Assembly: GCF_014174405.1 (NCBI RefSeq)
Contig: NZ_JACEGA010000001.1
Coordinates: forward strand, 2,633,001-2,697,000
Source: Variimorphobacter saccharofermentans
GTDB taxonomy: Bacteria > Bacillota > Clostridia > Lachnospirales > Lachnospiraceae
Direction: 5' to 3'
DNA length: 64,000 bases
The notes below the pieces were generated by a model. That model saw only the letters and a list, made by a program, of their open reading frames with translations, did no database searches and was not told where the DNA came from. Shown here piece by piece: positions 14,095 to 59,317 of the stretch (position 1 is its first letter; each line of letters opens with the position of its first letter). A program made the translations under genes and the position numbers.

Positions 14095-14118
14095 TATCAA
14101 TACAACCGTCTCAACATG
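14095..14118 (-). repeat. att-like site A (HVETVV motif)
   Basis: Minus-strand reading: HVETVVLITRVKE followed by a stop. One of five same-orientation 24-bp copies. It resembles the C-terminal codons of RumA/RlmD-type 23S rRNA m5U methyltransferase genes, a known integration target. The rest of such a gene is absent. Confidence 0.7.
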
Positions 14119-14451
14119 GAACGATAGGCTCACCTCGATGTCTGGTCTGTATTTTTCGTTTTATTCGTTCGCGGGAATAGGTCGAGCATGGTTATTATGG
14201 GTATTATCTGTTCGGGGAACAGGTCAACTGTTTTCGTGTGTTCGTGGGAATAAGTCGATATATGGGTCTTGATTCCTGTCATCTCAGGTGTGTTTCCTAC
14301 GATACTTTGATACCAATGCACCATTTTCTGTTGTCGGCGGGCTTTCGTTAACGAGCAGGGTATCGTTAACGAGCAATATATTAATCTTTCTTCGACGTGC
14401 GGTTTTGCCTTTATACATAGACTCCTCGATCCGGCATCCCATCATATTATA
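14119..14451. other. Non-coding region with two repeat families
   Basis: Three copies of a GTTCGNGGGAANARGTC-like unit begin near 14167, 14209 and 14240. Two copies of TCGTTAACGAGCA, each with the palindrome TCGTTAACGA, lie at 14345-14357 and 14363-14375. No coding frame is convincing. The triple unit resembles the multiple binding sites at IS21-type ends. Confidence 0.55.
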
Positions 14452-14973
14452 TTATTCGTGCCAAAGTACTGTGCCGCAACAGTCGCATACGGCACTTGCC
14501 GCACCGTCAAATTCGTTTCTGGTTGTGGTTGCCGAGACATAGCTGTTGCATTTTGGGCAAAACGGTGCGCTGCCGCAGGGAATACAATCGCTTCGATATG
14601 CCGTTCCATAATTCGGGTCATTGGGGTAGTTGCATATCACCGCCAGATGGGGTGTTTTTTTACCGCAGCGACTGCAATGCTCCAAGCGAAGCTCCGTGCG
14701 CTTTCCTAAAGAATATCCTACAACCTTTCCCTGCCCACAGTAGATGCAGAAGCCGTCATCGCCGAATGTGTGTTTTGTAGCTCCACAGACCTTGCATTTA
14801 CAGCCATCCCAAACATGGGGTTCTGATTTACGACAGTTGGTACAGTAATGGAGTTTATCGTCACCAGCACGCCAGTGATGCCCTTCGTCGCGCACCTCGC
14901 CGCAACGGACGCATTTACAGCCATTCCAGTTATGGCCTTGCTTTTTGCATTTGAGCTTTCCGAATAAATTCAT
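14452..14973 (-). CDS. Zinc-ribbon repeat protein, unknown function (a)
   Basis: 173 residues with at least four Cys pairs. HNWNGCKCVRCGE and HVWDGCKCKVCGA are clear repeats of an HxWxGCxCxxCG unit; CIYCGQG, HCSRCGKKTPH, FCPKC and CDCCG follow. Each can bind zinc; no catalytic motif is seen. The start at 14973 follows GGAGGG, 17 bp after the previous gene. It is the last gene of a six-gene operon. The DNA here is noticeably richer in G+C than the surroundings (60% over 14881-14940), suggesting separate acquisition. Confidence 0.75.
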   Translation of the reverse strand: MNLFGKLKCKKQGHNWNGCKCVRCGEVRDEGHHWRAGDDKLHYCTNCRKSEPHVWDGCKCKVCGATKHTFGDDGFCIYCGQGKVVGYSLGKRTELRLEHCSRCGKKTPHLAVICNYPNDPNYGTAYRSDCIPCGSAPFCPKCNSYVSATTTRNEFDGAASAVCDCCGTVLWHE

Positions 14974-14990
14974 AGCGCCCTCCAAACTTC

Positions 14991-15614
14991 TTATTTGTCG
15001 CCACGGACACCTCCGTGGAAAATGCCTTCGTCGGCATTAGCGTCGTATTCCTGCCGCCGTATTTCTTCTTGAGTAAGTGAAGCTGTTTCTTTCAATTCGT
15101 TAACCCTTGTACGTTCCTCCGCAATCACATTCCGTTGGATGTTTTGTGCATCAAGAGCATCAAAAATCTTTATAACTATGTCTGGAAATCTATTCGCGTA
15201 CCCGGCTATCTTGCGAATTAGGTAAGCGTCGTTAAACACTTGTGGCAGCAGTTCGCCATGCAGTGTAATGAGGCTTGCATACGCTTCAATCGCCATTTCA
15301 TCAGTACGGGCGCGTCCATAGGGGCTTAAATAGTATTTTCCGCATGAATTGCATCGCTGGAGATCGGTAACTTCTCCATCAACATATTCATATTGATGCT
15401 CGACTTTGCCGCATCGGGAGCATTCACATCCTATAAAGTTGTGTTGAATATCCCGCGTCTTTCCGCAGTTCAGGCATTTCTCCCGGCACTGACCCTCTAT
15501 TTGCCGCCATTGATGCTCGATTGTTACCGTAGCTCCGCAAACGCGACAGCGCCGGGCGCATTCATTAGGCAGACGCTCCCATTTATGCCCGAAAACTTTA
15601 CAGAGAAATCCCAT
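14991..15614 (-). CDS. Zinc-ribbon protein with helical C-terminus, unknown function (b)
   Basis: 207 residues. The N-terminal third repeats Cys pairs (CRVCGA, CLNCGK, HNFIGCECSRCGK, CNSCGKYY), related to the neighbour at 14452. The rest (about 105-207) is helical and charged without Cys. A GGAGG site precedes the start. The shared HxWxGCxC unit suggests the two proteins arose from a common repeat or act together. No function is recognised. Confidence 0.72.
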   Translation of the reverse strand: MGFLCKVFGHKWERLPNECARRCRVCGATVTIEHQWRQIEGQCREKCLNCGKTRDIQHNFIGCECSRCGKVEHQYEYVDGEVTDLQRCNSCGKYYLSPYGRARTDEMAIEAYASLITLHGELLPQVFNDAYLIRKIAGYANRFPDIVIKIFDALDAQNIQRNVIAEERTRVNELKETASLTQEEIRRQEYDANADEGIFHGGVRGDK

Positions 15615-15717
15615 ATTGTTACCTCCAACGATTCTTAGTTTCTGCCTATGCGTCTCGCAAAATGCACGACACGCTTTCTAAACCCTCAAATATGCTTGGC
15701 TCCATACGATTTGATTG

Positions 15718-16134
15718 TCAGTATCCTTGCTTCATGTCGTAATCATGCCAGATTTGCTTCATATCAACGTCTGCGGAGTCATCATCAGAGGCGGCAGGCA
15801 ATTGAGGACTGAAATAGTCCCGCACGGTTTGAGATACCGCTTTTGTCGGCAGTAGATCGCGATATGGTATGCCGCACATCATAAATACTTTTTTTGCATC
15901 TGCCAAAAGCCAGAGATCATTCTCCGTGATGTTCCCTATCAGAAGATACTGGAGAAGAGTTTCAGCTTGCATATATTTCATGATAATGTGCTTTGTGTAT
16001 TGGCAGGGAGTAACATCAAGAATATGAAATTTTTCATCTTGCTGCAATTGCCCTTCCGAAAGCATATACCGCAACTTTTTTTCAGCGCTTTTACTTAACT
16101 CGTTTCTTAACCAGACTGGTTTGCTGAAAAACAC
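15718..16134 (-). CDS. Hypothetical protein in zinc-ribbon/LRR operon
   Basis: 138 residues, soluble, mainly helical, ending in an acidic stretch (DDDSADVDMK). Not recognised. Translation probably begins at a GTG at 16134, seven bases after AAGGGGGA. It lies between the 4-TM protein and the zinc-ribbon genes on the same strand, with short gaps. Confidence 0.6.
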   Translation of the reverse strand: MFFSKPVWLRNELSKSAEKKLRYMLSEGQLQQDEKFHILDVTPCQYTKHIIMKYMQAETLLQYLLIGNITENDLWLLADAKKVFMMCGIPYRDLLPTKAVSQTVRDYFSPQLPAASDDDSADVDMKQIWHDYDMKQGY

Positions 16135-16159
16135 TTCTTTTCCCCCTTCCGAAATTCTA

Positions 16160-16555
16160 TCAATCTTTAACCCCTATAAAAGCAAACACGCCGGATGCGA
16201 TGCCGATAAAGATGAGATACCCGAGAGCAACCCAACCGTCGCCGTAAGCGTCGTTCCAGATGTTAATTGCAAACACTACAGACACCGCACCACCTGTGAG
16301 TATCGCACAGAGGACAGCAAGCACTGTGTTACCATTCACGTCGCTCCATTGCGCTATCTTGTTCTCAACCCACGTCACAGCGATATAGGCGGCGATAAAA
16401 GCGGCGTAGAAAAGCAAAATCAACGGACCCGCATTTTGTGTCCATTTCTCGATTCTGAATGATAACGGCGGCGCATATCGGAAAAGTACAAAGCCGAGTG
16501 CGGCGCTGATGAGCAGTAAGGCAACCCACCCGATAATCTTCCTCAAATAACACAT
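16160..16555 (-). CDS. Small four-helix membrane protein
   Basis: 131 residues with four hydrophobic segments (about 10-28, 43-61, 78-99 and 106-128). No conserved enzymatic motif. A GAGAGG ribosome site lies just upstream. Likely an inner-membrane component of whatever the operon encodes (inference). Confidence 0.65.
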   Translation of the reverse strand: MCYLRKIIGWVALLLISAALGFVLFRYAPPLSFRIEKWTQNAGPLILLFYAAFIAAYIAVTWVENKIAQWSDVNGNTVLAVLCAILTGGAVSVVFAINIWNDAYGDGWVALGYLIFIGIASGVFAFIGVKD

Positions 16556-16585
16556 TTTTGTTTTCCTCTCGTAATTGGTAGCATT

Positions 16586-16831
16586 CTACACTTCCTCAAT
16601 CCAGTATGTGATGGATATTGTATTAAGCTCGGTATTGCTCATTTTCATTCGTTCATCTTGCAGCATCTCTTTTGCTTTTTCTTCCGCCTCGGTATAGGTG
16701 CCTGAAAAAAGCTGTTTTATTTGCAGATAGCTGTAATAGTCCGAGTCATCCGAGACATAGTCGGGCGCATCGCACGCGCTTCCTATCGTGATACTATACG
16801 TCTTGCGCGGTTCCGTTGTTTTAGCTGTCAT
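16586..16831 (-). CDS. Hypothetical small protein (81 residues)
   Basis: A short soluble protein, Tyr- and Asp-rich in its first half (SDDSDYYSYLQIKQLF), with a clear AGGAGG site upstream. It is not recognised. Its place 17 bp after the LRR gene and 30 bp before the membrane gene supports it being real. Confidence 0.6.
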   Translation of the reverse strand: MTAKTTEPRKTYSITIGSACDAPDYVSDDSDYYSYLQIKQLFSGTYTEAEEKAKEMLQDERMKMSNTELNTISITYWIEEV

Positions 16832-16848
16832 TTGCCTTTCCTCCTAAA

Positions 16849-17307
16849 TTACCATCCGTGTGTATATGTACTTGCCGAGCCGAATACAATCTTTGCATTT
16901 GGGCAGTTAGAAAACGGCTCGTTTCCGATGATTGGGCGCATAAATTGATAGCTGATGTATACCTTCTCCAAAAGCGGGCAGTTGCAAAATGCGCCGTCCT
17001 CAACAACGATGCCGCCGGAGAAGGAACGAATCTCGATTGTCTTCAGATTTGCACAGTTATCAAAAGCTCCGGCGTGAATCGTCACCGTTTCACGATCTTC
17101 ACAGCCGTACAACAAATTCTCAAGCCTTTGGCAGCCGGTGAAGCAGCCCTTGAGGAAATGCGGCATGTAATTCAAAGTAAGTCCGCGATATTCTTCGTCA
17201 GCATAACGTACCGGCGCTCTTTTGTTTCCCGTAGCGATAAAGCCGTGTTTTAGAAGTCGCTCAATATCAATTTTTTCAAGCCCAGGCTTCTTTGAAAACA
17301 ATCCCAT
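16849..17307 (-). CDS. BspA-type leucine-rich-repeat (LRR_5) protein, cytoplasmic
   Basis: 152 residues. Two or more LRR_5 units are visible: HAGAFDNCANLKTIEIR and EDGAFCNCPLLEKVYIS, with a degenerate copy FLKGCFTGCQRLENLLY before them. It lacks a signal peptide, so it probably acts inside the cell as a binding scaffold. It is the first gene of the operon, with AGGAGG six bases before the start. Confidence 0.75.
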   Translation of the reverse strand: MGLFSKKPGLEKIDIERLLKHGFIATGNKRAPVRYADEEYRGLTLNYMPHFLKGCFTGCQRLENLLYGCEDRETVTIHAGAFDNCANLKTIEIRSFSGGIVVEDGAFCNCPLLEKVYISYQFMRPIIGNEPFSNCPNAKIVFGSASTYTHGW

Positions 17308-17599
17308 GATAACCTCCTATTGCTTGTTCCAATCAATTTCTGGTAGCCGCCTCTTAACATGGTCGGTCATGGCTGGCTGACCTTTCTTTGTAAACCCTCC
17401 GAAATCTTTTTGTCCAACTCGCCTTCTTCCGATATGAGATGGGTGTTCCATCCTCATGCTGTCATTTGTTCCTCATATGTGTTATCCTTTGTCTCTGAAT
17501 AGAAATATGTAATAATTATATCATGTTCTCGCTCTTGAAGCCACCTGTTCATTATACAAATTCTATAATTGAAAATTGAAAAGTTAAATTCCACCCCCC

Positions 17600-17637
17600 A
17601 TTTAGTACTGCACTGGAATTTACTTTTTCAAGTCAGC
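17600..17637 (-). repeat. 38-bp repeat, right copy of a distant inverted pair
   Basis: Exact reverse complement of 3393-3430, 14.2 kb away. The flanks do not match. Confidence 0.75.
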
Positions 17638-18190
17638 TAGTTAAGCCAATTTGCTCATTGGCAGTACTAAATTCCTTCCCCATACTATATTCTCCTATAC
17701 GCAAAAAACCGGACCCTTAGGTAACCGGAGTATGATCACAAAATAATATGCTCTATCTTATTTAAAGTATACACCATATTACGATTTTGTCATCCCCAAT
17801 TATCTTCTCCATAAAAATCACTGATTAACAATTAATGCCTTATGCTTGCTTATCAACCGAATTAAGTTGTGACCGCCCTTGACTCATTTCAATCAATCAA
17901 ATAATTGCAAAGACAGTTCCTCCTCTTAAGTAGTTAATAAATCTATTATATCATAATATTATTCCAAATAGTACCATATTCTTTGTTAAATATCATTATA
18001 TACTAAAAATCGCAAAAAACCTGAGATTGAATTTTATCTACTTGTCTATAATAACAGGGTAGCGATTACTCTATCATCTGCTTAGATTCATTACAGCAGC
18101 CATCGGTCAAATTAATATTCATGATACATTTCTATTAAATAGGATCAAATTGATAGAAAAATACTAAATGAAACAGTCCAACATTAACAA

Positions 18191-18270
18191 CAGTTCTATA
18201 GTCTCAACCTATCCCCAAAAAAGTAGTTTCATAGTCTCGCAAGACTAAAAGCAGTTCTGTAGTCTCAACC
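18191..18270. repeat. Three spaced repeats of a TAGTCTC-containing unit
   Basis: CAGTTCTATAGTCTCAACC (18191), TAGTTTCATAGTCTCGC (18224) and CAGTTCTGTAGTCTCAACC (18252) are spaced 33 and 28 bp. The middle unit forms a small palindrome (AGTCTCGCAAGACT). They lie just downstream of the intron-split gene. Confidence 0.65.
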
Positions 18271-18294
18271 CTAACCCTCTTTTCACTTCATTAG

Positions 18295-20470
<2,176 letters not shown>

Positions 20471-20506
20471 TTTTCACATTCCTTTCCAACTTGTTGTATA
20501 TAATTG

Positions 20507-21348
20507 TTAATTGCTATTCTTCAGCAAATTCATATATCTGTCTTTTGCATCAGAAATCGCTTTTTTACCATTACCTTTTAGTACAAAGGTTAATTTATAT
20601 GGATCTACTGAGCCATCCTCATTAACATCGCCTACAATTACTTTTTCAACAATACTTTCAAATACTACTCGGTCAAAAGTATCAAGTACATCTACTTCCG
20701 TCAGTCTCTGTCGCAATTCTTTCATACGTTTCCCAACATTGTGCTGGGTATTCGCATTTACAAGGAAATAATCTCTTTCTTCCTTTGCTCTAGAAATTTT
20801 AGTAGTGAATTCATCGTATTTTTCATCATACGCGTCTTTAGAAATTTTATCATCCAATAACATATCGGTCAATTTCTTTCTCTTATACTCCAGGTTACTA
20901 ATGCTTGTTTCAATGCGCTTAACTTTTATCGCATCTTCATTATTTGAAATAGTGGATTCTACTGTTTCAAGAACAGAATCCAGAACATCATCAAAATTGT
21001 CTGCTAGAAGCCTGAATGCTTCCAAAAATGCGTTCTCAATGATTACTTCATCTATCGCCTTACTATTAGGACAGTTTGCAATTCCATTCTTTGTTGCATT
21101 AGTACACTTCCATACTGGTTTCTTATGTTGTGTATCCTGATGATGAGAACGTCTCGAAAAAAATGTTCCGCAAAAACCACACTCACACATACTGCTAAAT
21201 GCAAATTTTCTTGAATACTTTTCGCGAGTCCCTTCTATGATAAGCGAATTCTTTTTATATCTACCCTTTCGTATTTCCTGTGCCTTGTCCCACATTTCAG
21301 GTGATATGATTGGCTCATGGTGACTTTTAATATAGAATTGATCTTTGG
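20507..21348 (-). pseudogene. Large serine recombinase, C-terminal fragment
   Basis: About 280 residues: the end of a recombinase domain (IISPEMWDKAQEIRKGR), a zinc beta-ribbon with two Cys pairs (CECGFCGTFF...CTNATKNGIANCPN), then a coiled coil and the terminal domain. This is the C-terminal half of a large serine integrase as found in Tn4451/ICE-type elements. The N-terminal catalytic resolvase domain is missing, cut at 21348/21349 by an IS150-like element. It cannot catalyse integration as it stands. Confidence 0.88.
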
Positions 21349-21435
21349 TGGTAGACTAAAAATGGTACAAGTTGAAAGTGGACTAGATCCTAAATAGTAG
21401 TTATAATAAATACTATAAGAGATGGAGGAGTTATC

Positions 21436-21723
21436 ATGAGTAAACAGTTTGACAAAAAATTTAAAGAGGATGCCGTCCGATATTACTTTGATCATAAAGA
21501 TTTAGGTCTCAAAGGATGTTCAGATAAGTTGGGGGTTAGCCGTACAGCACTTAGCGTATGGGTTAAAGAAGCAAAAGAAAACAATGGTGAAGTACCAACT
21601 AGGGGTTCAGGCAATTATGAAAGCGATGAAGCCAAGGAAAACGCGAGGCTACGCAGAGAGTTAAGAGATACACAGGATGCATTAGAAATATTAAAAAAAG
21701 CGATCGGCATCCTGGGAAACTGA
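21436..21723 (+). CDS. IS3-family OrfA
   Basis: 95 residues; helix-turn-helix (CSDKLGVSRTALSVWVKEAK) and a zipper-like C-terminal helix (ENARLRRELRDTQDALEILKKAIGILGN). GGAGGAG stands seven bases before the ATG. A run of A residues before the end is a plausible frameshift site into orfB. Confidence 0.88.
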   Translation: MSKQFDKKFKEDAVRYYFDHKDLGLKGCSDKLGVSRTALSVWVKEAKENNGEVPTRGSGNYESDEAKENARLRRELRDTQDALEILKKAIGILGN

Positions 21724-21752
21724 CAGAAGCTCTCTTCATTGCAACATCCGAA

Positions 21753-22637
21753 ATGGAAGATAAATTGAACGATGAAGGCGAACGCCGGCTGAATGTCAGC
21801 GGGGTGCTTAGAGTATTAGGCGTTTCAAGAAATGGCTACTATTCATATAGAAAAAGACTTCCTTCTGATAGACAAAAACGCAAGGAAGCGATTATGGAAA
21901 AAATAATGGCAATATACAACGAATCTCATCAGAATTATGGAGCTCCAAAAATCACAAAGGTACTGCAAAGTGAGGGAGAAAAAATCAGTGAGAAGACAGT
22001 CGGAAACTATATGCATGAGCTAGGAATTAGAGCTCAATATGTTAAACCGTATACTGTTACAACGATAGATTCAGACTTTAGCTTAGAACTAAAAAATATA
22101 TTGGATGAGGAATTTAACCCAAGTGAGCCAAATGCTGTTTGGTGTTCAGATATAACTTACATTTGGACCTATGAAGGATTTGTATATTTAACAAGTATTA
22201 TGGACTTGTTTTCCCGTAAAATCATAGCATGGGAGCTTAGTACAACCCTAGAAGCTAAATGGGTTGTAGAAACGATTAATAGAGCGAAGAAAGCAAGAAG
22301 AATAGATAAGCCATTGGTCATGCACAGTGACAGGGGCATACAATATACCTGTAGTGCATATAAGGAGGCAACAGAAGGACTTATAAACAGTTATTCAAAG
22401 AAAGCTTTTCCATGGGACAATGCATGTATAGAATCATTCCATGCATTAATTAAGAGGGAGTGGATAAACAGATTTAAAATATTAGATTATAATCACGCAT
22501 ATCGCCTTGTATTTGAATACATAGAGGCATTTTATAACACTGTCAGGATTCATAGTCATTGTGGATATTTATCACCAAATCAATATGAGGTAAATTACGC
22601 AAAGCAACTGGTAAAATTATACAGGAAGGTAAGCTAA
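21753..22637 (+). CDS. IS3-family OrfB transposase
   Basis: The rve core is complete: WCSDITYIW, MHSDRGIQY and DNACIESFHALIKREW. The in-frame sequence is open upstream to about 21719 without an ATG (LTEALFIATSE), which supports production as an OrfAB frameshift fusion rather than from the ATG at 21753. Confidence 0.9.
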   Translation: MEDKLNDEGERRLNVSGVLRVLGVSRNGYYSYRKRLPSDRQKRKEAIMEKIMAIYNESHQNYGAPKITKVLQSEGEKISEKTVGNYMHELGIRAQYVKPYTVTTIDSDFSLELKNILDEEFNPSEPNAVWCSDITYIWTYEGFVYLTSIMDLFSRKIIAWELSTTLEAKWVVETINRAKKARRIDKPLVMHSDRGIQYTCSAYKEATEGLINSYSKKAFPWDNACIESFHALIKREWINRFKILDYNHAYRLVFEYIEAFYNTVRIHSHCGYLSPNQYEVNYAKQLVKLYRKVS

Positions 22638-22689
22638 ATAATAATAAATTTTCCCGATTTAACTTGTACTTTTTCTTGACATAGTACCA

Positions 22690-22812
22690 ATGCCTATTTT
22701 CTGGATCACCACCAACCGCTACTGGTTTTCCCCGAAGTTCGGGGCGATGCAGCAATTCTACACTGGCATAAAATGCATTCGCATCTGAATGTAGTATAAT
22801 TCTATCTTTCAT
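22690..22812 (-). pseudogene. dinB: DinB/UmuC-type Y-family DNA polymerase, N-terminal stub
   Basis: Forty-one codons: MKDRIILHSDANAFYASVE...RGKPVAVGGDPENRH. The DANAFYASVE element with its metal-binding Asp is the signature start of Pol IV/ImuB-type translesion polymerases. The gene breaks off at the IS150-like element. It is divergent from the LexA-like regulator, the usual arrangement of these two genes. Confidence 0.85.
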
Positions 22813-22959
22813 ATAATTATTTATGGCAGTAACATATAAATTCCCTAAATATGTTACTAGCAGACTTCCTCCTTTCTCATCATCTGATTTATCTATTATT
22901 ATAATACTCATATTATGATATGTAAAGTGAATAATTTATCATTTTATGATATTTTATTC

Positions 22960-22988
22960 TTGATAATTGTATCAGACTGATGTACAAT
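22960..22988 (+). promoter_or_regulatory. Sigma-A-type promoter for the LexA-like gene
   Basis: TTGATA (22960-22965), a 17-bp spacer, and TACAAT (22983-22988), about 80 bp upstream of the start codon. The AT-rich inverted words around 22935-22960 could be an operator. Confidence 0.6.
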
Positions 22989-23068
22989 ATAGACCAAAGG
23001 TGGTAGTGTACAACTAACCCGTGGCATTTTTTACCCAACAAAATAAGTGCCAAACTGAAAGGAGCATC

Positions 23069-23785: not shown

Positions 23786-23873
23786 ATTTGAAGATTATGA
23801 AACAGAACAGTACTATTATCAAAGATTACGCGAGCATGGAATCCAGCATATTAACTGGGGAATGTCAGCTTAA
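23778..23873 (+). CDS. Small ORF coupled to the LexA-like gene (possibly frameshifted)
   Basis: Thirty-one codons: MPKFEDYETEQYYYQRLREHG... The start overlaps the end of the regulator gene and GAAAGGAG lies upstream. In the next frame, 23872-23946 reads KILTKEEIDEALEDL...PGLKR and stop, protein-like, so a one-base indel may have split a longer gene. Function unknown. Confidence 0.45.
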   Translation: MPKFEDYETEQYYYQRLREHGIQHINWGMSA

Positions 23874-23946
23874 AATTCTTACAAAAGAAGAAATTGACGA
23901 AGCGCTTGAAGACCTTTCTTGTTCAATACCTGGGCTTAAACGGTAA

Positions 23947-24190: not shown

Positions 24191-24238
24191 GTAAGCGTCA
24201 AATCATACGCCTGACGATAAATTTAACGCCACCTTTTA

Positions 24239-48343: not shown

Positions 48344-48395
48344 ATTCTCAAATACCTTATTTAACTTTCCTTCAGGATTATGAGGTTCTCCCCTG

Positions 48396-48722: not shown

Positions 48723-48845
48723 GTAAGCGCTCGACAATAGAGTGCCTATTCTATTTTAGAGATCCATGTGATAATAACTCTAAATATTGAGTTAAAGTTT
48801 TTCAAGTTTTTCAACTTGAAAAACTTTAGAAAGGAGTTGTGAAAC

Positions 48846-49555: not shown

Positions 49556-49657
49556 GTGGAAAGTGACTGAAAGTATTGATTTTACTAGCCTTTTAGCTGT
49601 TTTTATGGTATAATAAACCTATCAAGTTTAGAATATATGGTAGGAGAAAAACCACTG

Positions 49658-51196: not shown

Positions 51197-51330
51197 TTAT
51201 TTGAGACTGACTAATTATCATAGTCGGTCTCTTTCTTATTTACAAGGCACCCTGTTGTTAACCGCTTACAATAGAATAGGCACTCTATTGTCGAGCGCTT
51301 ACGTTGATGTGGAGGAATAAGGTTCAAAAC

Positions 51331-51373
51331 AATCCAGGCACCCTACGAAATCAAAACGCAGGGTGCCTGGATT
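51331..51373. terminator. Strong hairpin between IS66-D and the membrane-protein gene
   Basis: AATCCAGGCACCCT and AGGGTGCCTGGATT pair perfectly over 14 bp around a 15-base loop. It lies just downstream of the 51412 gene, so it probably ends that operon's transcript; there is no clear T-run. Confidence 0.6.
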
Positions 51374-51411
51374 TAGTAATTAATAGTTTTCTATAATAAA
51401 TGAACAGTTCG

Positions 51412-51813
51412 TCATCTATCTTTTTTGAGTAGATATATCATAGGAATCAGAGCAAATATAAACTCTGTGCTAAAGGCAACAACTAACCATAGCTGTAAAC
51501 TTGACGGCCATGGCCATACGATTTGAACAATAACCCTTGATAACCATACTAAAACAAAGAACACATAGAACACATTCAACTCTTTCATACCTGAAAACAG
51601 TTGCTTTTGCATCAGCAATAATATAAGGCTAAGCCCGGCTAATAAAAGTGAAAAGCAGAAATTTACATAATTGATGGATTGAATAATTTCAATTGGTGCA
51701 TCTGGTATATAGGAATACCAACCAAACGAATACGGCGCAAAAAAATGCAGAACACCAACTATACTACTGATAATACAACCAATATTAAATAGCACCCTTG
51801 TAATTACCTTCAT
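51412..51813 (-). CDS. Small membrane protein (about four helices)
   Basis: 133 residues with four hydrophobic segments (about 5-24, 45-66, 79-97 and 105-127). No recognised family. GGAGGG lies upstream of MKVITRVLF at 51813; an earlier ATG at 51828 is less well placed. It follows the CPBP gene by 41 bp on the same strand. Confidence 0.65.
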   Translation of the reverse strand: MKVITRVLFNIGCIISSIVGVLHFFAPYSFGWYSYIPDAPIEIIQSINYVNFCFSLLLAGLSLILLLMQKQLFSGMKELNVFYVFFVLVWLSRVIVQIVWPWPSSLQLWLVVAFSTEFIFALIPMIYLLKKDR

Positions 51814-51854
51814 TCCCATACCCTCCATATCTATAGGATCCTCTCGTAGTTCAT

Positions 51855-52517
51855 TTAATTTACCTTTGCTATTAATATGAATAAAAGGACTTCAAATATA
51901 TTAGCAGCAAAATGTGATATTGTGCTAATCCATGCATTCTTTGCCTTATGGAATATGACTCCATATAAAACACTGTTAATGAAAGTAAAGACAAGCCCGA
52001 ATAAAACTATAGTCATATCCCCTTGCTTATAGTGACCAAGGGTAAATAAGAAAGAAGTTACAAGTACCGCTGGGATAATCGGCAGTACCTTGCTGAGCCT
52101 GTTTTGGAAGAATGCCCTCCACGCAATTTCCTCACCCAAGGCAAAAACCAAAAACATAAGGAAAGACTTAGCGCTGATTTCTATCTCCACAAACGATCCA
52201 GCCCTCAATGTTTCATATTCTATATATTCGGGCAAAAACAATACCGACAGTAAAACGCATACAGCGTCCATGACGATTGGCAGGATAATCCAAATCCATA
52301 TTTTTTTATCCTTCAAGCCCTCGCCGATTGCTTTAAAATCAAGGCCGCTTCCTTGCATTGGCTGCCTTTCAACCGCTTGGCAAATAAAGAAAAAAGCAAC
52401 ACCAAGAATAATTGCTGCAGACGATAAGTTTGCCCCAAATAGATTTGTAAAAGAGACGATTGCCATGGCAGCCAAAACGATTATACCCACCACAGATTGT
52501 TTTTTTGTGTATTCCAT
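51855..52517 (-). CDS. CPBP-family intramembrane metalloprotease
   Basis: 220 residues, six or so membrane helices. The motifs ALGEEIAWRAFFQNR (EExxxR), FTLGHYKQGD and ISHFAANIFEV supply the Glu/His/His site of the CPBP (Abi/Rce1-like) peptidases. Members mature bacteriocins or confer immunity; the role here is not known. Confidence 0.87.
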   Translation of the reverse strand: MEYTKKQSVVGIIVLAAMAIVSFTNLFGANLSSAAIILGVAFFFICQAVERQPMQGSGLDFKAIGEGLKDKKIWIWIILPIVMDAVCVLLSVLFLPEYIEYETLRAGSFVEIEISAKSFLMFLVFALGEEIAWRAFFQNRLSKVLPIIPAVLVTSFLFTLGHYKQGDMTIVLFGLVFTFINSVLYGVIFHKAKNAWISTISHFAANIFEVLLFILIAKVN

Positions 52518-52602
52518 TTTATCCTCCGAAAATTTTATTATACCGATTCTAATATTGTACGATGCTGAATTTTAACTCTTACCCGATCCATAACTTCCTG
52601 TA

Positions 52603-53367
52603 CTATTGATGCACAAAGCTCCTATTTTTCTTTGCAATATAGAAAACATAGCTGTAATAATCCTTAAATCTGTTGTACATATCCGCTTCTATTTTACCTT
52701 GCTCAAGAAAATCTTTTACCTCATCTGCATAATTATATTTCTTAAGGAACTCTTCGGAATTATCTATAAGCGGCTGATAATAATTATCTATCCAGCATTT
52801 ATCATCCAATGCAAAATGGGAAACAATCTCATATCCGCATTTCTCAATTACTGCAAGTTTGTTTTCGACTGTATCGATTTCCGAATATAAATTCACCCAA
52901 TACTGTTCGATTTCCTCCGGCCTCGTACCGGTCAGCCATGAGATTTCAGAAACAGCGATATAACCGTCTTCCTTCAAATATTTTCTCCAAAGGGACAGTC
53001 CTTTTTCAAAACCTATGTTGTAGACAGCTCCCTCCGACCATATTACATCAAAAGAGTGTTCCTTAAAGGTTAAGCTTTCCATGAGCATTTCTTCAGCTAC
53101 AATACGGTCTGTAAGATTATTCTCTTTAGCATTTTTCATAAGCATTTCTAAAAACTGTGGAAACATATCGACCGCTGTGATTTGTGCAGCTGTGTTTTTT
53201 GCTAGTGTTATTGTCTGACCGCCGGTTCCACAGCCGATGTCGAGTATTCTAGATTTTTCATTCAAACAAGGAATGTAGCTTAGTGCTTTTAATGTCGCTT
53301 CTTCACTGCCCGGCCCCTGACGTTGGTTACCCTTGTGGTACTCTAAAATTAATTCTAATAAATCCAC
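52603..53367 (-). CDS. Class I SAM-dependent methyltransferase
   Basis: 254 residues. Motif I RILDIGCGTGGQTITLA, acidic AVDMFPQFLEML, then FDVIWSEGAVYNIGFEKGL. Translation most likely begins at GTG 53367 (MDLLELILEYHKGNQRQGPGS), because AAGGAG stands directly before it; the ATG at 53424 would add a poorly conserved tail. It follows the second nucleotidyltransferase, as a different methyltransferase follows the first. Substrate unknown. Confidence 0.85.
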   Translation of the reverse strand: MDLLELILEYHKGNQRQGPGSEEATLKALSYIPCLNEKSRILDIGCGTGGQTITLAKNTAAQITAVDMFPQFLEMLMKNAKENNLTDRIVAEEMLMESLTFKEHSFDVIWSEGAVYNIGFEKGLSLWRKYLKEDGYIAVSEISWLTGTRPEEIEQYWVNLYSEIDTVENKLAVIEKCGYEIVSHFALDDKCWIDNYYQPLIDNSEEFLKKYNYADEVKDFLEQGKIEADMYNRFKDYYSYVFYIAKKNRSFVHQ

Positions 53368-53425
53368 TTTAATTCTCCTTGTGAAATATATGTTTAATCT
53401 ATCTAACAAAATTCGGGTTTGCATT

Positions 53426-54247
53426 CTAAAGAATCCCCTTCACTTCGTCAATCAACTGCTTTAGCTGTACACAGGCTTCTGCGGCTTCTGTTCCGGCTGC
53501 CGCAAAAATTGAATTTACTTTATCTTTGTATCTGGGCGGGTGTGTGCTAAAACTATCTATCATGCTAACTGCCTTTTTTTCGTTCAGGCAGTATTCTTCA
53601 TTTACTGCAAACAGCACTTGATTCAGCGCTGAGACCGCCCGTACAATATGAGCAGCAACATAATAAGCATCATTTTTCTCTGCATTACTTTCTGCAAACA
53701 TTAAAGAAAATTCTGCTTCAAACATAAAGAAACTAATAATCGCTGTTTTTAATTTCAGTGGGTATTGTTCCGCAACCTGCTTTAAAGCTGAAATATTACC
53801 CTGTTTATCCCACAACATCTTGCATACTGCTAATTCTCCCATATACATAACATTTATATAAGCATGGGGATGTCCTGTTTGATAATGTGCGGTAACTTTT
53901 CCTTCCCGGCATTCTGAAATTACATTTTCCACACGATCTATATCCCTTAGAATAAAATCAACATGGTATCCATCAATAATAAGCCAGCCACCGCCATTAA
54001 CCCATTGACCCCATTCCCCGGGAGGAACTATCAAATTGTCTCTGTGTTCATCATCCACAATTTTCGCCGCTTTGTTCAAGGACACAAGATCAAGAGTTTC
54101 TTTATCGTAATAGATACCAATATCAATATCCGATTCAGAGGAATGAGTACCCCTTGCACGGGATCCTCCAAGCACGACAGCCTGAATACCTGAAACATCC
54201 GCCAATACAGATACAACTTTGTCTAATATTATTTTAATATCATTCAT
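53426..54247 (-). CDS. Nucleotidyltransferase (MNT/aminoglycoside-type), paralogue 2
   Basis: 273 residues, closely similar along its whole length to 12957-13787. The catalytic motif GGSRARGTHSSESDIDIGIYY keeps Gly-Ser and both Asp. The downstream neighbour is again a methyltransferase and the upstream 90 bp are also shared with paralogue 1, so the whole unit was duplicated or acquired twice. Confidence 0.87.
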   Translation of the reverse strand: MNDIKIILDKVVSVLADVSGIQAVVLGGSRARGTHSSESDIDIGIYYDKETLDLVSLNKAAKIVDDEHRDNLIVPPGEWGQWVNGGGWLIIDGYHVDFILRDIDRVENVISECREGKVTAHYQTGHPHAYINVMYMGELAVCKMLWDKQGNISALKQVAEQYPLKLKTAIISFFMFEAEFSLMFAESNAEKNDAYYVAAHIVRAVSALNQVLFAVNEEYCLNEKKAVSMIDSFSTHPPRYKDKVNSIFAAAGTEAAEACVQLKQLIDEVKGIL

Positions 54248-54296
54248 GCATACTCACCTCATTAAATCGATCTTTATAAAAAGCTTGTTAATTCCT

Positions 54297-54351
54297 ACAT
54301 CCAACCTGTTCACACAACCTTAAAAAAATCCGAAAAAACATCTAAATCGCT
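54297..54351 (-). repeat. Decayed half of the 17-bp repeat array
   Basis: ACATCCAACCTGTTCAC at 54297 and the start of a second unit (ACATCTAA at 54339) match the first two units of the arrays at 13838 and 55019. The rest is replaced by unrelated sequence before the kinase-like gene. Confidence 0.65.
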
Positions 54352-54459
54352 CTGGCATGATCTAAATCATGCCTTCACGCTTGTTCCCATGTAGTAATGT
54401 TTGTTCGATTTTAGTAGATGGTCTCGTTTGCTTTAATTAGTATACAGACAAATTGAAAT

Positions 54460-54957
54460 TTAACAGTTCCTAATAATAAAATCAGCAACTTGCTCTGGAC
54501 TGATTTTCGATACATCAACTTTATACGTATTCAATTCTTCGTAAAGAGGTATTCGCTCTATACTTCTACCAATCACATCTTCTGTACGAATACCAGCATC
54601 AACATCCTTTCTCAAGCGCGCTTGCAATGTTTGTTCACTGCATACCAAAGATATGGAATGAACCTTACAGTTTTCTGTGTTAAGTCGTGAAACAATATGG
54701 TCAATAATAGTCTGTTCGTGCATAACCCAGCAAAACACGATGTTTTCATAAGCAGAGCACTTAATAAAGTTATTTAAAAGGAAGCAGATATTCTCTAATA
54801 CCATTTGCTTTGTTTCCTCTGTCACTTGAAAAGGGTGCATATCCCAACACCAATCTCCGTCGAGGAAAACGCTGTTGTTTAATTTGTTTTTTATAATCTG
54901 GCAAGTAGTTGTTTTTCCTACTCCCATTGTTCCGCCAATTAAATAAATGTTTTTCAT
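54460..54957 (-). CDS. P-loop kinase-like protein (AAA_33 type)
   Basis: 165 residues. Walker A IGGTMGVGKTTTCQ (about 7-20), VFLDGDWCWDMHP as the substrate/metal segment, and a LRKDVDAGIR lid region. The size and layout fit small-molecule kinases such as chloramphenicol or shikimate kinase-like proteins. Start at 54957 behind AGGAG. It has the four-unit repeat leader 62 bp upstream, like the nucleotidyltransferase genes. Substrate unknown. Confidence 0.8.
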   Translation of the reverse strand: MKNIYLIGGTMGVGKTTTCQIIKNKLNNSVFLDGDWCWDMHPFQVTEETKQMVLENICFLLNNFIKCSAYENIVFCWVMHEQTIIDHIVSRLNTENCKVHSISLVCSEQTLQARLRKDVDAGIRTEDVIGRSIERIPLYEELNTYKVDVSKISPEQVADFIIRNC

Positions 54958-55018
54958 GCTCAAACTCCTGTAAATTCCGATTTATCGATTTCTTTAATCA
55001 CTACACATAGTTATACTA

Positions 55019-55135
55019 ACATCCAACCCGACCACACAACCTCAAAAAACTCCGAAAAAACATCTAACCCGACCACTCGCGACTCCTGACATCTAACCCG
55101 GCCACTCGCCGGGCTATGACATCTAACTTGACCAC
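55019..55135 (-). repeat. Four 17-bp repeats in the leader of the kinase gene (array 2)
   Basis: Units at 55019, 55060, 55089 and 55119 of the form ACATCTAACCCGACCAC. Spacing (41, 29 and 30 bp) is the same as array 1, followed by the same 140-bp segment and an att-like site. Confidence 0.8.
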
Positions 55136-55276
55136 TTGACTATCAAATACTGCCTTTATGGACTTGTTTCCACGAAGCGATATTTTCATGTTTTTCGTTC
55201 AATGGCTTTTACACCCATGTGTGCTAAAAGCATTGATATATAAGGGTTTTCAGCTCTCTCAATCTTTTACCCTTGT

Positions 55277-55300
55277 CATCAATACTACCGTCTCAACGTG
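55277..55300 (-). repeat. att-like site C (HVETVV motif)
   Basis: Minus strand reads HVETVVLMTRVKD and stop. To its right, GATACTTAGGCTATTT and the next 80 bp resemble the right flank of site D. Confidence 0.7.
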
Positions 55301-55454
55301 TGATACTTAGGCTATTTTGGGATCAAATCCAAAAACGATGAAATTCGTTGATTTTTCAGGCTTTTTCTCATTACTGGAAGAATGATGACATATAATCTAT
55401 TGTCTCGCATAAGTAGGCTATTTGCTATTTTAGCACGTAGCAAACTAGAATTTA

Positions 55455-56315
55455 TCAGGATTTCGGTTGCAACTTTACAATCACAATTTCAGGACGATTA
55501 TTCAGCCTAACCGGAATGATACTGTTTCCAATTCCTCTGCTAACTACCATAGTCGTACCTCTTTCACCAAAAACTCCAGCATCATATTCTGGGAACAGGC
55601 CTTGATTTGGGGCCACTATACCTCCAATAAACGGCATCCTGAACTGTCCTCCATGTGCATGCCCGCTGAGTACTAAATCCACATTCGTTGAAACATAGGA
55701 ATGAAATGTCTCAGGTCGATGCGATAAAAGAAGTTTAAATCCATCTTGTAGTTTGAGGTTTTTAAGTTTGGAATCCAACATACTATCTTGCACCACGGCA
55801 TCCCTGTCAGCAAAATCCGGGTCATCCAGTCCTATGAGTTGGATGCTCTCTCCATCCTTATATATCGGCATCACCTCATCATGAAGGATTCTGACCCCCA
55901 CATCTATCATTTTTTTCTCTAATTGTTGATAGTCTTCACCAATCCATGCTTCGTGATTACCAGTTACATAATAACATGGAGCAATTTGGACAGCCTGCTG
56001 CATAAACTGTACTGCGATATCAATATCGGTTCGATTTGAATCAATCAAATCTCCGGTGATTGCAATCATGTCCGGTTTTTCCTCATGCAAGATTTCAATG
56101 ATTCTCGCATTATTTTCTCCAAACTTTGCATTATGTAAATCAGATATCTGTGCGATTTTATATCCTTCAAACGAGCTCGGTAAATTTTTAAAAGCAATCT
56201 CGTAATGTGTTGTGCCTATCGTTAGGTTTCCCCAGACCATCCAACCGACGACTAATGCCAAAAGAGCGAGAATTATCACTATTATTATTTGTTTTCTCTT
56301 AAATCTTGACTTCAT
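55455..56315 (-). CDS. Membrane-anchored metallophosphoesterase (YkuE/YaeI-like)
   Basis: 286 residues. An N-terminal anchor helix (about 8-28) precedes the calcineurin-like site: QISDLHNAKFG, ITGDLID, YVTGNHEAW, LLLSHRPE and LSGHAHGGQFR, all metal ligands present. Relatives act outside the membrane on lipids or phosphomonoesters such as UDP-diacylglucosamine-type or teichoic-acid substrates. It is the passenger gene of the module between sites C and D. Confidence 0.88.
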   Translation of the reverse strand: MKSRFKRKQIIIVIILALLALVVGWMVWGNLTIGTTHYEIAFKNLPSSFEGYKIAQISDLHNAKFGENNARIIEILHEEKPDMIAITGDLIDSNRTDIDIAVQFMQQAVQIAPCYYVTGNHEAWIGEDYQQLEKKMIDVGVRILHDEVMPIYKDGESIQLIGLDDPDFADRDAVVQDSMLDSKLKNLKLQDGFKLLLSHRPETFHSYVSTNVDLVLSGHAHGGQFRMPFIGGIVAPNQGLFPEYDAGVFGERGTTMVVSRGIGNSIIPVRLNNRPEIVIVKLQPKS

Positions 56316-56329
56316 AATTTTCCACCAGC

Positions 56330-57253
56330 TTATGATTTCTTCTTTGAACTGTATTTCTTACTACTACGATGCGTACCATCACCATCCTCAACAACGTTAC
56401 TTCTTTTGAGTCTTTCTTCCTGTACCGCCCTGAACTCGCTCTCCGTAATGATCGGCGGATGACATTCTTTCATTTGGAACTCATATTGCTGTGTAGCAGA
56501 ATCCAAAAGAGTTACCGTGCCTGTGTACTTCTCATTTTCAAGAATCTTCTCTACAGAACGCTTGCTCCACGTTTCTTTACCGGTAGGGGAAGGAATACCT
56601 GCGTCTGATAGTTTCTTTATGATACCAAGCACGCTGGCGCCATCCAGATACCATCTGAAAATGTCCCGCACGACCTTAGCCTGTTCATTGTCAATTACAA
56701 GGTCCCCATCCTTATTCTTAGAGTAGCCGTACAGCTTTCGTTTGTAGAGTCCAGAAGTTCCGTTTGCTGCTCTCATAGCAAGTCCCATGCGGATATTTTC
56801 GCTTCGGCTCTCATTTTCAGCCTGGGCAAAGGATTCCATCACCGAAATCATAAGATTGCTGTCAATTTCATCGGTATCCAGGTTTTCTTCTTCAAATATT
56901 ATTCTGACACCGGCTGCCTTCAACCGATTGATTGCTGATAAGGTTTCAACCGTATCTCTGCCAAATCTGCTAATACTTTTTGTGAGGACAACGGAGATAT
57001 TGTGAGCTTCACATTCTCGAAGCAGTCGTTCAAATTCCCGACGAGGTATTTCTCCCTTCGCTGAAGCGATATCGATAAAAACATCTGCCAGTCTCCACTG
57101 ACTAACATTCGCAACCGCTCTTGTCAAAGCGGAAATCTGTGCTGCAAGGCTATAAAGCTGTTCTCTTTCGTTTGTACTGACCCTGCAGTAAATTCCGACT
57201 TTCTTTTCTAAACGGTCATTCTTTACCGGGATATACCAGATTTTTGAATCCAC
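56330..57253 (-). CDS. Serine recombinase (resolvase plus recombinase domain)
   Basis: 307 residues. Catalytic Ser near residue 26 (IYCRVSTNEREQ), ISRFGRDTVETLSAINRL, then a Recombinase domain (RKLYGYSKNKDGDLVID...WSKRSVEKILENEKYTG). It ends in a basic tail (THRSSKKYSSKKKS) and lacks the zinc ribbon and coiled coil of large integrases, so it is short for the family. It begins 140 bp left of site D and lies 14 bp before the phosphoesterase gene. It probably moves the module, alone or with a partner (inference). Confidence 0.88.
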   Translation of the reverse strand: MDSKIWYIPVKNDRLEKKVGIYCRVSTNEREQLYSLAAQISALTRAVANVSQWRLADVFIDIASAKGEIPRREFERLLRECEAHNISVVLTKSISRFGRDTVETLSAINRLKAAGVRIIFEEENLDTDEIDSNLMISVMESFAQAENESRSENIRMGLAMRAANGTSGLYKRKLYGYSKNKDGDLVIDNEQAKVVRDIFRWYLDGASVLGIIKKLSDAGIPSPTGKETWSKRSVEKILENEKYTGTVTLLDSATQQYEFQMKECHPPIITESEFRAVQEERLKRSNVVEDGDGTHRSSKKYSSKKKS

Positions 57254-57392
57254 AAGCTCACCTCCTGTTTTAATATAGCCTAATTATATCACGTTTTATC
57301 GCCAATGATAAGTAGGCAATTATTGCTCTTTAAATGCGTGAAATCACAACATATTGTGTTCGCGCAATCTCTTTCAGCTACATATTGCGCGT

Positions 57393-57416
57393 TATCAACA
57401 CCACCGTCTCCACATG
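57393..57416 (-). repeat. att-like site D (HVETVV motif)
   Basis: Minus strand reads HVETVVLITRNM and stop. Right flank TGATACTTAGGCTATTT is shared with site C. Confidence 0.7.
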
Positions 57417-57505
57417 TGATACTTAGGCTATTTAAGAAAACATATCCAAAGTTAACGAAAGCTTGATTTCAAAGGCTTTTTCATTAAAGGAAAGAGTAGT
57501 CGAAT

Positions 57506-58048
57506 TTACTTGTTTGCTAGCCACTGCTCCTTTGTCATATAGTTTGTATGGCCTATTCTGGTCTCTCCCATAAGCGGCACTGCTACTTCTTTGCATGTAT
57601 GATGGTAAACAAATCCGACTTTCTCTTGTACTCTTTTTGATTTTGTGTTGCCTTCATAATATCCGCACCATATTACATTCATATTTAAATCTTCAAATCC
57701 ATGACGAATGAGCTCTCTTGCTGCTTCAGGAATAAGTTCCTGTCCCCAAAACTCCTTTCCTATCCAGTAACCCAATTCACATTCATCATCTCTTTTGGTC
57801 ATATCTGTACTTCCATTAAGTTTCAGTTCAATACAGCCAATCGCTATATTATCAGTTCTTAAACATACAGCATAGCACTCTGGTCCACAAAAAACGTTTT
57901 TTATAACCTCACGGCTTTCATCTATACTCTTATGAGGAGGCCAGCCAGCAATAGGCCCAACAGCAGGGTCTTTTGCATATTTAAATAAACTCTCTGCATC
58001 CGTTTCTTTCCACGGACGTAATATTAGTCTTTCAGTTATGAATTCCAT
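57506..58048 (-). CDS. GNAT-family N-acetyltransferase (RimJ/RimL type)
   Basis: 180 residues: ITERLILRPWKETDAESLF at the start, CELGYWIGKEFWGQ and EAARELIRHGFEDLNMNVIW as the acetyl-CoA-binding region, and KRVQEKVGF near the end. These are typical of protein- or drug-acetylating GNATs. Start at 58048 follows AGGAGG by nine bases. It is the passenger of the module between sites D and E. Confidence 0.88.
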   Translation of the reverse strand: MEFITERLILRPWKETDAESLFKYAKDPAVGPIAGWPPHKSIDESREVIKNVFCGPECYAVCLRTDNIAIGCIELKLNGSTDMTKRDDECELGYWIGKEFWGQELIPEAARELIRHGFEDLNMNVIWCGYYEGNTKSKRVQEKVGFVYHHTCKEVAVPLMGETRIGHTNYMTKEQWLANK

Positions 58049-58088
58049 AATCACAATTCCTCCTGTCATATTCTAATAAAATTACAAT

Positions 58089-58199
58089 TTATAATTTCTT
58101 CTTCGAACTATATTTCCTACTGCTGCGATGTTTACCTTCATCATCCGTAACAATATTACTTCGCTTTTTCTTTTCTTGCTTTACGGCTCTAAACAGACT
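58089..58199 (-). pseudogene. Serine recombinase, 3'-terminal remnant
   Basis: Thirty-six codons reading SLFRAVKQEKKKRSNIV...HRSSRKYSSKKKL, matching the tail of the recombinase at 56330 (FRAVQEERLKRSNVV...HRSSKKYSSKKKS). All upstream domains are gone, replaced by the DUF1835/DUF3658 gene, whose stop is immediately adjacent. Confidence 0.85.
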
Positions 58200-59083
58200 T
58201 ATACTTTTCTTACAACTTTTCCATATGGATGTGAAGGATCCTTTTCTTCAACAACAATTAGTTTGTTTTCTTTAATCATTTTTTCAATACGTAAAGCATA
58301 CCAACTATCGCTAATGCCCAGCCTATATTCTCCTAAGAGCTTTCCGATAAGTCTAGCCATAATGAAATCACTATCAGGCAGATTATTCATGATAATGAAA
58401 TCATAAAAATTTTCCGGTACGGAAGTTAACTTTCCATTTATAATTGCGCGCAATGGTGCATTTTCTACCATTAAGTCGTGCCAGCGGTCACCAATAATTC
58501 TCTTTTCTATCTTAGTTAATTGTTTTTCAAGAGATAAAAATTGATAAAACTTACCTGCAGCGACTTCCCCCCAGTGATTATACTCGGCTATTTCATTCTC
58601 AGATATTGGTTTATATTCAGGTAAAGAAACAACTCTTATATCGCAGTCAATATTTTTTAATAAATGGCATACGAAGTGAAATCCGCAAGCAGAATAAGGA
58701 GTGTTGCTTTTCCATATTCGTATTGGTATACCATCTTTTGCGGCAGACAACAGCTTCTCCATATCCTTGCGTTGATTTCGGAAGAACCGTTCTTGTTCCT
58801 TATTATCAACCTCAAATCGTCCCCACAATTTTCGGAAAATATTTTGCCGCTCATGTCCATCAATTTCACCCGAAATATCTCCAATGTCAAGCGAAAAACC
58901 TATATTAACAACATCTTGAGAATTCCCTCCAATTGCTTGGCCTTCAAAATGTTTCCCTAATTCAGCTTTGGTTGGCTTTTTTCCAATATAACCGATCGCT
59001 CCACCAAGCATAGTTTTTGCATTATAATTTTTTGCTACTTTCATAGAACCTTTTTCACTATCACTAAATACAACTTCGAGCAT
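58199..59083 (-). CDS. DUF1835/DUF3658-type protein
   Basis: 294 residues. The N-terminus (MLEVVFSDSEKGSMKVA) and C-terminal VPENFYDFIIMNNLPDSDFIMARLIGKLLG plus WYALRIEKMIKENKL match the DUF1835-DUF3658 pair seen in uncharacterised Firmicute proteins. Start at 59083, behind GAAGGTGA, because the family begins there. No function is known. Its 3' end abuts a recombinase remnant, suggesting it replaced that gene. Confidence 0.75.
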   Translation of the reverse strand: MLEVVFSDSEKGSMKVAKNYNAKTMLGGAIGYIGKKPTKAELGKHFEGQAIGGNSQDVVNIGFSLDIGDISGEIDGHERQNIFRKLWGRFEVDNKEQERFFRNQRKDMEKLLSAAKDGIPIRIWKSNTPYSACGFHFVCHLLKNIDCDIRVVSLPEYKPISENEIAEYNHWGEVAAGKFYQFLSLEKQLTKIEKRIIGDRWHDLMVENAPLRAIINGKLTSVPENFYDFIIMNNLPDSDFIMARLIGKLLGEYRLGISDSWYALRIEKMIKENKLIVVEEKDPSHPYGKVVRKV

Positions 59084-59150
59084 TGCTTCACCTTCTATTA
59101 AAAATATATACATCCATTCTATCTCCACAACCCTACTGATGTTATCTTAT

Positions 59151-59312
59151 CTATCCACTCAACTCCACATCATTTTTCAGTTCTTTTTCTATCCATCGAT
59201 ATGTTTCCATGTACACATTTTGCCCCTTTAGATTGAGTGGTCGATTTAGTTGAGCTTCCACAAACTCAGTAAAATCTAGACTTACACCCTCGACATTAAT
59301 ACTACCGTCTCA
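59151..59312 (-). pseudogene. C-terminal gene fragment next to site E
   Basis: Open frame without a start, reading GVSLDFTEFVEAQLNRPLNL and then YMETYRWIEKELKNDVE, ending at 59151. Protein-like, but not recognised. It runs through site E in a frame other than the HVETVV one. Confidence 0.35.
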
Positions 59313-59317
59313 ACATG
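59294..59317 (-). repeat. att-like site E (HVETVV motif)
   Basis: Minus strand reads HVETVVLMSRV and stop. Its right flank differs from C and D, so it borders a different element. Confidence 0.7.

Follow-up and report, generated by a model that had tools for sequence, protein, structure and literature searches.

Repeated cores resembling the 3' end of rlmD as probable docking sites of small serine-recombinase elements in Variimorphobacter saccharofermentans

Five copies of one 24-bp sequence lie on the minus strand of a 64,000-nucleotide stretch of the Variimorphobacter saccharofermentans genome (contig NZ_JACEGA010000001.1, positions 2,633,001 to 2,697,000; hereafter the window), and the question raised by this locus is why a sequence that reads as HVETVVL(M/I), like the last codons of the rRNA methyltransferase gene rlmD (also called rumA), should recur there outside any gene. 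The most probable explanation is that the five sites (cores A to E, Table 1) are attachment cores, left by elements that use serine recombinases to integrate at the rlmD 3' end and that stack on cores of the same strand.

All five copies listed in a preliminary description of this DNA match the degenerate pattern without a mismatch. In the window, 0.28 matches would be expected at three or fewer mismatches, and none of 100 shuffles reached five. Over the whole genome, seven exact copies were found, compared with none for a reversed control pattern, and ten copies with two or fewer mismatches, compared with two for the control; all the copies lie on the minus strand, so that the genome-wide search proposed earlier did reveal additional sites. 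When the fourth codon was left free, the genus yielded 54 cores in 22 of 34 genomes and four matches to the reversed control (both totals are hand sums over a per-genome table). Chance repetition as the origin of the cores is ruled out by the shuffles together with the reversed-pattern controls in genome and genus.

Three genes of the RlmD family are present in the 4.16-Mb genome, and all of them share the minus strand with the sites. The product of rlmD-1 ends in ...STHVETVVLMSK before its stop, in agreement with the proposed origin of the motif from an rlmD/rumA 3' end; rlmD-2 reaches ...EHIECVTLM and then runs into a group II intron, and rlmD-3 ends in ...TVHVETVCLLSKKA and a stop. Because these three genes exist, the earlier statement that the gene body is absent is true of the window but not of the genome. 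Within the window, the frame upstream of all five cores is closed by stops within about 50 codons, and no rlmD body is attached. The differences between the cores are mostly synonymous, as in coding sequence, which would fit descent from working rlmD ends. Cores A, C, D and E are followed by the short in-frame tail and stop described before, whereas core B, also an exact match, runs into a group II intron instead. Same-strand cores lie 3.3 kb below rlmD-1 and 12.4 kb below rlmD-2, and the nearest site of the window array is found 72 kb below rlmD-3, again on the same strand; rlmD-3 may thus be considered a candidate anchor of the array.

The block between cores D and C (57416-55301) is an intact small element, hereafter a mini-element, with two genes, one for a serine recombinase and one for a phosphoesterase. 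It recurs core to core, with 88.8% identity over 2166 aligned bases, at locus L116 of Candidatus Dorea intestinavium, where the copy sits at a genuine rlmD gene, whereas the window copy follows the end of another mini-element and not rlmD. The suggestion that inter-site blocks behave as units is upheld for this block to the extent that species, not strains, were compared. Other hosts show similar changes of flank at the core. One element is shared by genomes G006 and G022 (99.83% over 5219 bp), which are alike up to core position 9; past it, four core positions differ and the sequences then diverge, one into an intron and the other into an rlmD-like tail. Likewise, loci L110 and L122 share one element (98.8% over 1719 aligned bases) between different rlmD genes upstream and different sequence downstream. 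Several sites have a serine recombinase gene adjoining the core, and the view of the sites as junctions of integrative elements was sustained, as were the flank similarities on which it drew: the sequence below cores A and C is alike over 282 bp from the core on (86.2% identity), and immediately ahead of the core both C and D have AAATAGCCTAAGTATCA, which marks the right end of a mini-element.

The recombinase of the window mini-element consists of a resolvase catalytic domain (PF00239, 7.5e-31) followed by a Recombinase domain (PF07508, 1.9e-22), and in its 307 residues neither the zinc ribbon PF13408 nor the coiled-coil C-terminal part of full-size integrases is present. It aligns to residues 59-292 of the 545-residue SPbeta integrase YokA, whose structure has been solved. 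From its sequence, the protein appears to be related to the large serine recombinases (LSR) but not to be a canonical full-size LSR. The best 120 of 4328 database relatives are all 305-309 residues long, with only the Resolvase and Recombinase domains. A frameshifted large integrase was rejected as a general reading, as the length and a KKYSSKK-type end recur at independent loci. In the available part of PMC4701971, PF13408 is also missing from 10 streptococcal serine integrases.

Twenty-one loci of the window's subtype were collected: the window itself, 15 loci on genome contigs, two on viral contigs and three from a class search (L153, L154 and L155), G282 being left out as apparently the same contig as L111, with which it agrees in length and sequence. 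At 20 of the 21, a core lies 163-170 bp (about 164 bp) upstream of the recombinase gene, and the upstream flank of these 20 cores is in frame with rlmD in 11 cases, follows an element end of the 'GACAT...' type in five and another mini-element in two, and is unclassified in two (L114 and L118). The 15 units with both cores measure 1200-2561 bp. For the right ends, 22 examples of the window's and a related subtype were chosen by their outer repeat (L111 and L112 fell outside this choice), which is therefore present in all of them by construction; an inner AGCCTA-type repeat was found in 21 of the 22. Five assembly contigs (G041:C74, G041:C77, G016:C105, G043:C248 and G020:C45) break off no more than about 100 bases from a core, which would suit assemblies that fail at repeated junctions.

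The cargo differs between otherwise similar units. The window mini-element and that of L113 (Fundicoccus ignavus DSM 109652, a cultured carrier) are 92.1% identical over 1082 bp, from the core to the recombinase stop; identity was not found in the cargo and resumes at the right end (85% over 75 bp). Therefore, the cargo appears to have been exchanged at a fixed joint. The window and L116 carry the phosphoesterase, L110 and L122 a lipoprotein-like open reading frame (ORF) of 139 residues, L111 and L112 a DUF6487 protein, L117 a glycosyltransferase, L125 a helix-turn-helix protein and L126 a GNAT protein. The ORF of L115 has a P-loop-like stretch (it was not put to Pfam), those of L113, L119 and L121 encode 347, 75 and 235 residues, L114 looks decayed, and L153 and L155 leave little or no room for cargo. 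When ten cargo proteins were searched against Pfam, matches were obtained for 4/7 of the window's subtype and 3/3 of the related subtype, one match being below the curated cut-off.

The related subtype, with recombinases 53-59% identical to that of the window at eight places, often has its cargo upstream of the recombinase. At L151, three of these units stand in tandem behind rlmD, one of them with a phosphoesterase like the window's, and no other locus shows accretion at rlmD as clearly. The cargo of one L151 unit (9722-10258) is a WapI-like immunity protein. At L158 and L152, the frame of a full-size serine integrase ends at or overlaps the core directly before a mini-element of this subtype. 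Recombinases 51-52% identical to the window's were also found after full-size integrase genes in Streptococcus phage Javan105 (and in three records identical or nearly identical to it there) and in Gardnerella phage vB_Gva_AB1. The Javan105 integrase frame ends in ...QVECVVLM and a stop, a variant of the core, and a direct repeat of 225 bp (90.2%) that starts at this core brackets the mini-element; in vB_Gva_AB1 the bracketing repeat measures 135 bp (87.4%). Since direct repeats bracket them, mini-elements can sit at the apparent attachment site of a phage, and they may travel with phages. A search of the phage records for a relative with an empty site found none; its matches were the four Streptococcus records, near-identical to one another, and a further partial one. 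Among plasmids there was a single distant match (44%).

A GUGYG start and exon- and intron-binding sites (EBS and IBS) are the landmarks of group II introns. The intron at core B begins with GTGCG, and its 3' exon continues the rlmD-like tail. A search by intron start pattern found 11 introns in 4 of the 34 genus genomes, all 11 directly after a core, one of these cores having an in-frame stop. The intron lineage thus uses the attachment core as a home, separately from the elements. As a complement of the exon end, ACATCAA at intron positions 223-229 (7 nt, fully Watson-Crick) is a reasonable EBS1 candidate because it lies, as expected for EBS1, within a predicted hairpin loop; two further 7-nt pairings with the exon end require G-U pairs. 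A 10-nt EBS2 candidate at 165-174 is less certain, as the minimum-energy fold pairs these positions elsewhere.

Under the docking reading, the left end of each element would supply the last rlmD codons and a short tail, and rlmD would in this way stay in frame; the core kept at the right end would remain as a same-strand target, which would allow elements to stack. Such docking would leave behind, outside any gene, a core that looks like coding sequence and whose copies differ mostly by synonymous changes. The window would then hold one intact mini-element, one fused remnant of another and the relic of a full-size integrase element at core B; the elements at cores A and C would be two that have their left arm and a nucleotidyltransferase in common. 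A mini-element would comprise a recombinase of about 306 residues that ends about where the zinc ribbon of larger integrases starts. Its gene would lie about 164 bp in from the left end and be accompanied by at most one small, exchangeable cargo gene.

Beyond the observed anatomy, the near-identical units in different hosts, the tandem stacking at rlmD and the phage records, it may be proposed that insertion and excision of the mini-element are the work of its own short recombinase. Loss of the coiled coil is known to loosen the directionality of serine integrases, and the missing C-terminal domains may make the short enzyme less one-way than a phage integrase; larger elements and phages that carry the core would move mini-elements between cells. 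Taken as a whole, this would amount to an integron-like cassette economy of Firmicutes without integrons, in which cassettes of 1.2-2.6 kb move by themselves, each bringing a reduced serine recombinase and a single swappable gene, line up at the rlmD 3' end and ride on core-bearing phages or larger elements; the recombinase would act both ways without a helper after the loss of its C-terminal domains, cargo would be swapped between the recombinase stop and the right-end repeat, and an intron lineage would home to the same site. This fuller picture is offered tentatively, at somewhat less than even confidence.

The mini-elements could instead be non-autonomous, as passengers or decay products similar to cis-mobilizable elements (CIMEs), moved solely by the full-size integrases of integrative and conjugative elements (ICEs), phages or further elements with this core, or else through homologous recombination from one core to another. 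Full-size integrases do adjoin cores in several genomes and in phage records, the short recombinase lacks the zinc ribbon found in most known serine integrases, and both the window block 59317-57417 and G020:C23 have lost most of the recombinase and kept cargo and both cores. Nevertheless, the recombinase preserves its length and C-terminal end across many hosts and has kept its catalytic domain, and the gene is present even in the L153 and L155 units with their little or no space for cargo; as passengers are not expected to preserve a recombinase, we regard this alternative as unlikely. An origin of the cores as mere target scars of the group II intron would account for the intron in a core in 11/11 genus cases, but most cores are intron-free, namely four of the five in the window and, in the genus, most of the 54 (one of the 11 introns lies in a core variant outside the 54). 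Element ends are marked by recombinase genes and not by introns, and compared elements without an intron at those ends still end at the core. An intron-scar-only origin was thus ruled out by the many cores without introns, and scars in place of attachment sites are highly improbable. Hardly any weight is given to a third possibility, that fragments of a duplicated rlmD were spread by ordinary duplication or insertion sequence (IS) activity, or that the repeat is fortuitous: the mostly synonymous differences and the richness of the window in IS66-type genes would suit it, whereas the absence of an attached rlmD body, the frames closed upstream, the recurring element ends that flank the core and the near-identical elements that change host flank there all speak against it, and a chance repeat is excluded by the window shuffles and the genus control.

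Several observations weigh against docking at rlmD, or against its extension to the whole array. On the left, junctions look host-derived as far as core position 12 or beyond, and on the right from about positions 3-6, so that one crossover point cannot give both; different recombinases acting on one core, or later insertions that replaced neighbours, could produce both patterns. Neither excision nor a circle nor an empty site within a species was seen. A core is missing upstream of the L120 recombinase, the flanks of L114 and L118 are those unclassified above, and L120, L121, L123 and L124 look broken. The recombinase is patchily distributed, being found in 9/391 class genomes at E ≤ 1e-80 (its own genome and the related subtype included) and, at more than 50% identity, in 2/34 genus genomes. 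Finally, rlmD-3 is no more than a putative anchor of the array, as the 72 kb that lie between them are of mixed content. Five serine recombinases, full-size or partial, are encoded there; one of the nine proteins tested from this region is a TraG-like ATPase, the rest including a subtilase and an SLH-domain protein. No core was found with a relaxed pattern between core E and rlmD-3.

The features of the window are collected in Table 1. The cassette-like array that had been proposed is only partly so: block 57416-55301 is a clean cassette, but 59317-57417 is a fused remnant, and the 35-kb and 6-kb blocks contain larger decayed elements plus the intron.

Table 1. Cores, elements and associated features of the window.
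Feature	Positions	Strand	Basis
Core A, HVETVVLI, tail TRVKE and stop	14095-14118	minus	exact pattern match and tail
Core B, interrupted by group II intron after MS	20308-20331	minus	exact pattern match and intron junction
Core C, HVETVVLM, tail TRVKD and stop	55277-55300	minus	exact pattern match and tail
Core D, HVETVVLI, tail TRNM and stop	57393-57416	minus	exact pattern match and tail
Core E, HVETVVLM, tail SRV and stop	59294-59317	minus	exact pattern match and tail
Intact mini-element between cores D and C (2116 bp from one core to the next), with left end, gene for the short recombinase, single cargo gene and right end	55301-57416	minus	identity with L116; spacing and size
Short serine recombinase, 307 residues, Resolvase and Recombinase domains only, ending KKYSSKKKS and stop	56330-57253	minus	Pfam
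Mini-element cargo, calcineurin-like phosphoesterase, 286 residues	55455-56315	minus	Pfam; same cargo in L116
Mini-element right end; the AATAGCCTA repeat occurs at 55414 and again at 55308, where it abuts core C	55301-55422	minus	
Fused remnant (block E to D); its mini-element right end, ahead of core D, lacks the inner repeat	57417-59317	minus	
DUF1835/DUF3658 gene (block E to D)	58199-59128	minus	Pfam
Recombinase 3' remnant (block E to D)	58092-58247	minus	located in genome coordinates
GNAT acetyltransferase (block E to D)	57506-58069	minus	Pfam
Core C and left arm, common to core A	55019-55300	minus	identity to 13838-14118
Core A and left arm, common to core C	13838-14118	minus	
Full-size serine integrase relic (C-terminal part, zinc ribbon) adjoining core B	20507-21295	minus	PF13408; matches integrase ending at core in G022
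Group II intron, 1901 nt, at core B	18406-20306	minus	RF02003 and RF00029 above gathering score; boundaries
Intron reverse transcriptase gene	18502-19806	minus	RVT_1 and GIIM

In G022, the integrase frame overlaps the core, and the relic by core B has the same layout. Nucleotidyltransferase-domain genes at 12957-13787 and 53426-54247, 83% identical, are the first or near-first larger genes after cores A and C, and each is followed by a methyltransferase gene; these pairs are probably two copies of one element type. The left arm common to both cores contains a repeated GTGGTC.GGTTAGATGTC-like motif, and similar left arms follow cores at genome position 3819482 and in G006. The 35-kb block (20.3-55.3 kb) holds many IS66-type genes, IS21-type and Mu-type transposase genes, and GH113, glycosyltransferase, methyltransferase and ABC-transporter genes. 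A cyclic di-GMP-I riboswitch was detected at 3107-3182 on the minus strand (61 bits).

If the short recombinase works alone, nature would have pared a serine integrase down to the catalytic and recombinase domains, which would offer a direct test of the role of the missing domains in directionality and a possible compact tool. Gene-cassette capture would then also extend beyond integrons, and single genes would gain a route among distant Firmicutes via one conserved docking site. The core codons, moreover, retain a partial record of the insertion history.

As far as the available texts of the sources go, serine-integrase ICEs and integrative and mobilizable elements (IMEs) in streptococcal rumA, and tandem accretion, are already known. 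Streptococcal ICEs in rumA carry a single serine integrase, with the attachment site within the 3' end of the integrase gene (PMC4701971), and IMEs also use rumA, the mean sizes being 41 kb for ICEs and 10 kb for IMEs (PMC5357655). The target gene is the same here, and the G022 integrase and the core B relic share the integrase-3'-end layout; these streptococcal elements are full-size, whereas the mini-elements measure 1.2-2.6 kb and encode a recombinase of about 306 residues, with no larger set of genes seen between their cores. Tandem accretion of ICEs, IMEs and CIMEs at one target via attL and attR, with decayed members persisting, has been described at rpsI, rpmG, rplL, fda and tRNA-Lys genes (PMC5357655, PMC7563491), and all non-decayed tandems in the consulted part of PMC5357655 carry tyrosine integrases. 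The stacking is alike, but those parts of the texts mention no units about 2 kb in size that carry a short serine recombinase.

Composite arrays of the staphylococcal cassette chromosome (SCC) exist. In SCC and the Enterococcus cassette chromosome (ECC, 32 kb), serine recombinases insert variable genes at the rlmH 3' end between direct-repeat att sites, according to the text available (PMC6222049). The 3' end of an rRNA methyltransferase gene, serine recombinases and variable content are common to both, although on that text SCC and ECC use rlmH and two full-size recombinases, CcrA and CcrB. The elements described here fall outside SCC/ECC, their target being rlmD and not rlmH (ccr genes were not searched as such). 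Among the open-licence PubMed Central (PMC) papers listed, no description was noticed of a mini-element with a shortened recombinase and exchangeable single cargo, or of a group II intron lineage linked to rumA or to the rlmD core, which does not establish absence from print.

Group II introns in integron attC sites, in the part of the source at hand, are a precedent for an intron lineage with a recombination site as its home (PMC7923331). The home here is, by comparison, an attachment core made of rlmD codons. Integron cassettes are short, usually carry one gene, and lie in one orientation separated by recombination sites. The mini-elements may be regarded as analogous to them in layout and perhaps in mode of action, with the difference that each intact mini-element carries its own serine recombinase.

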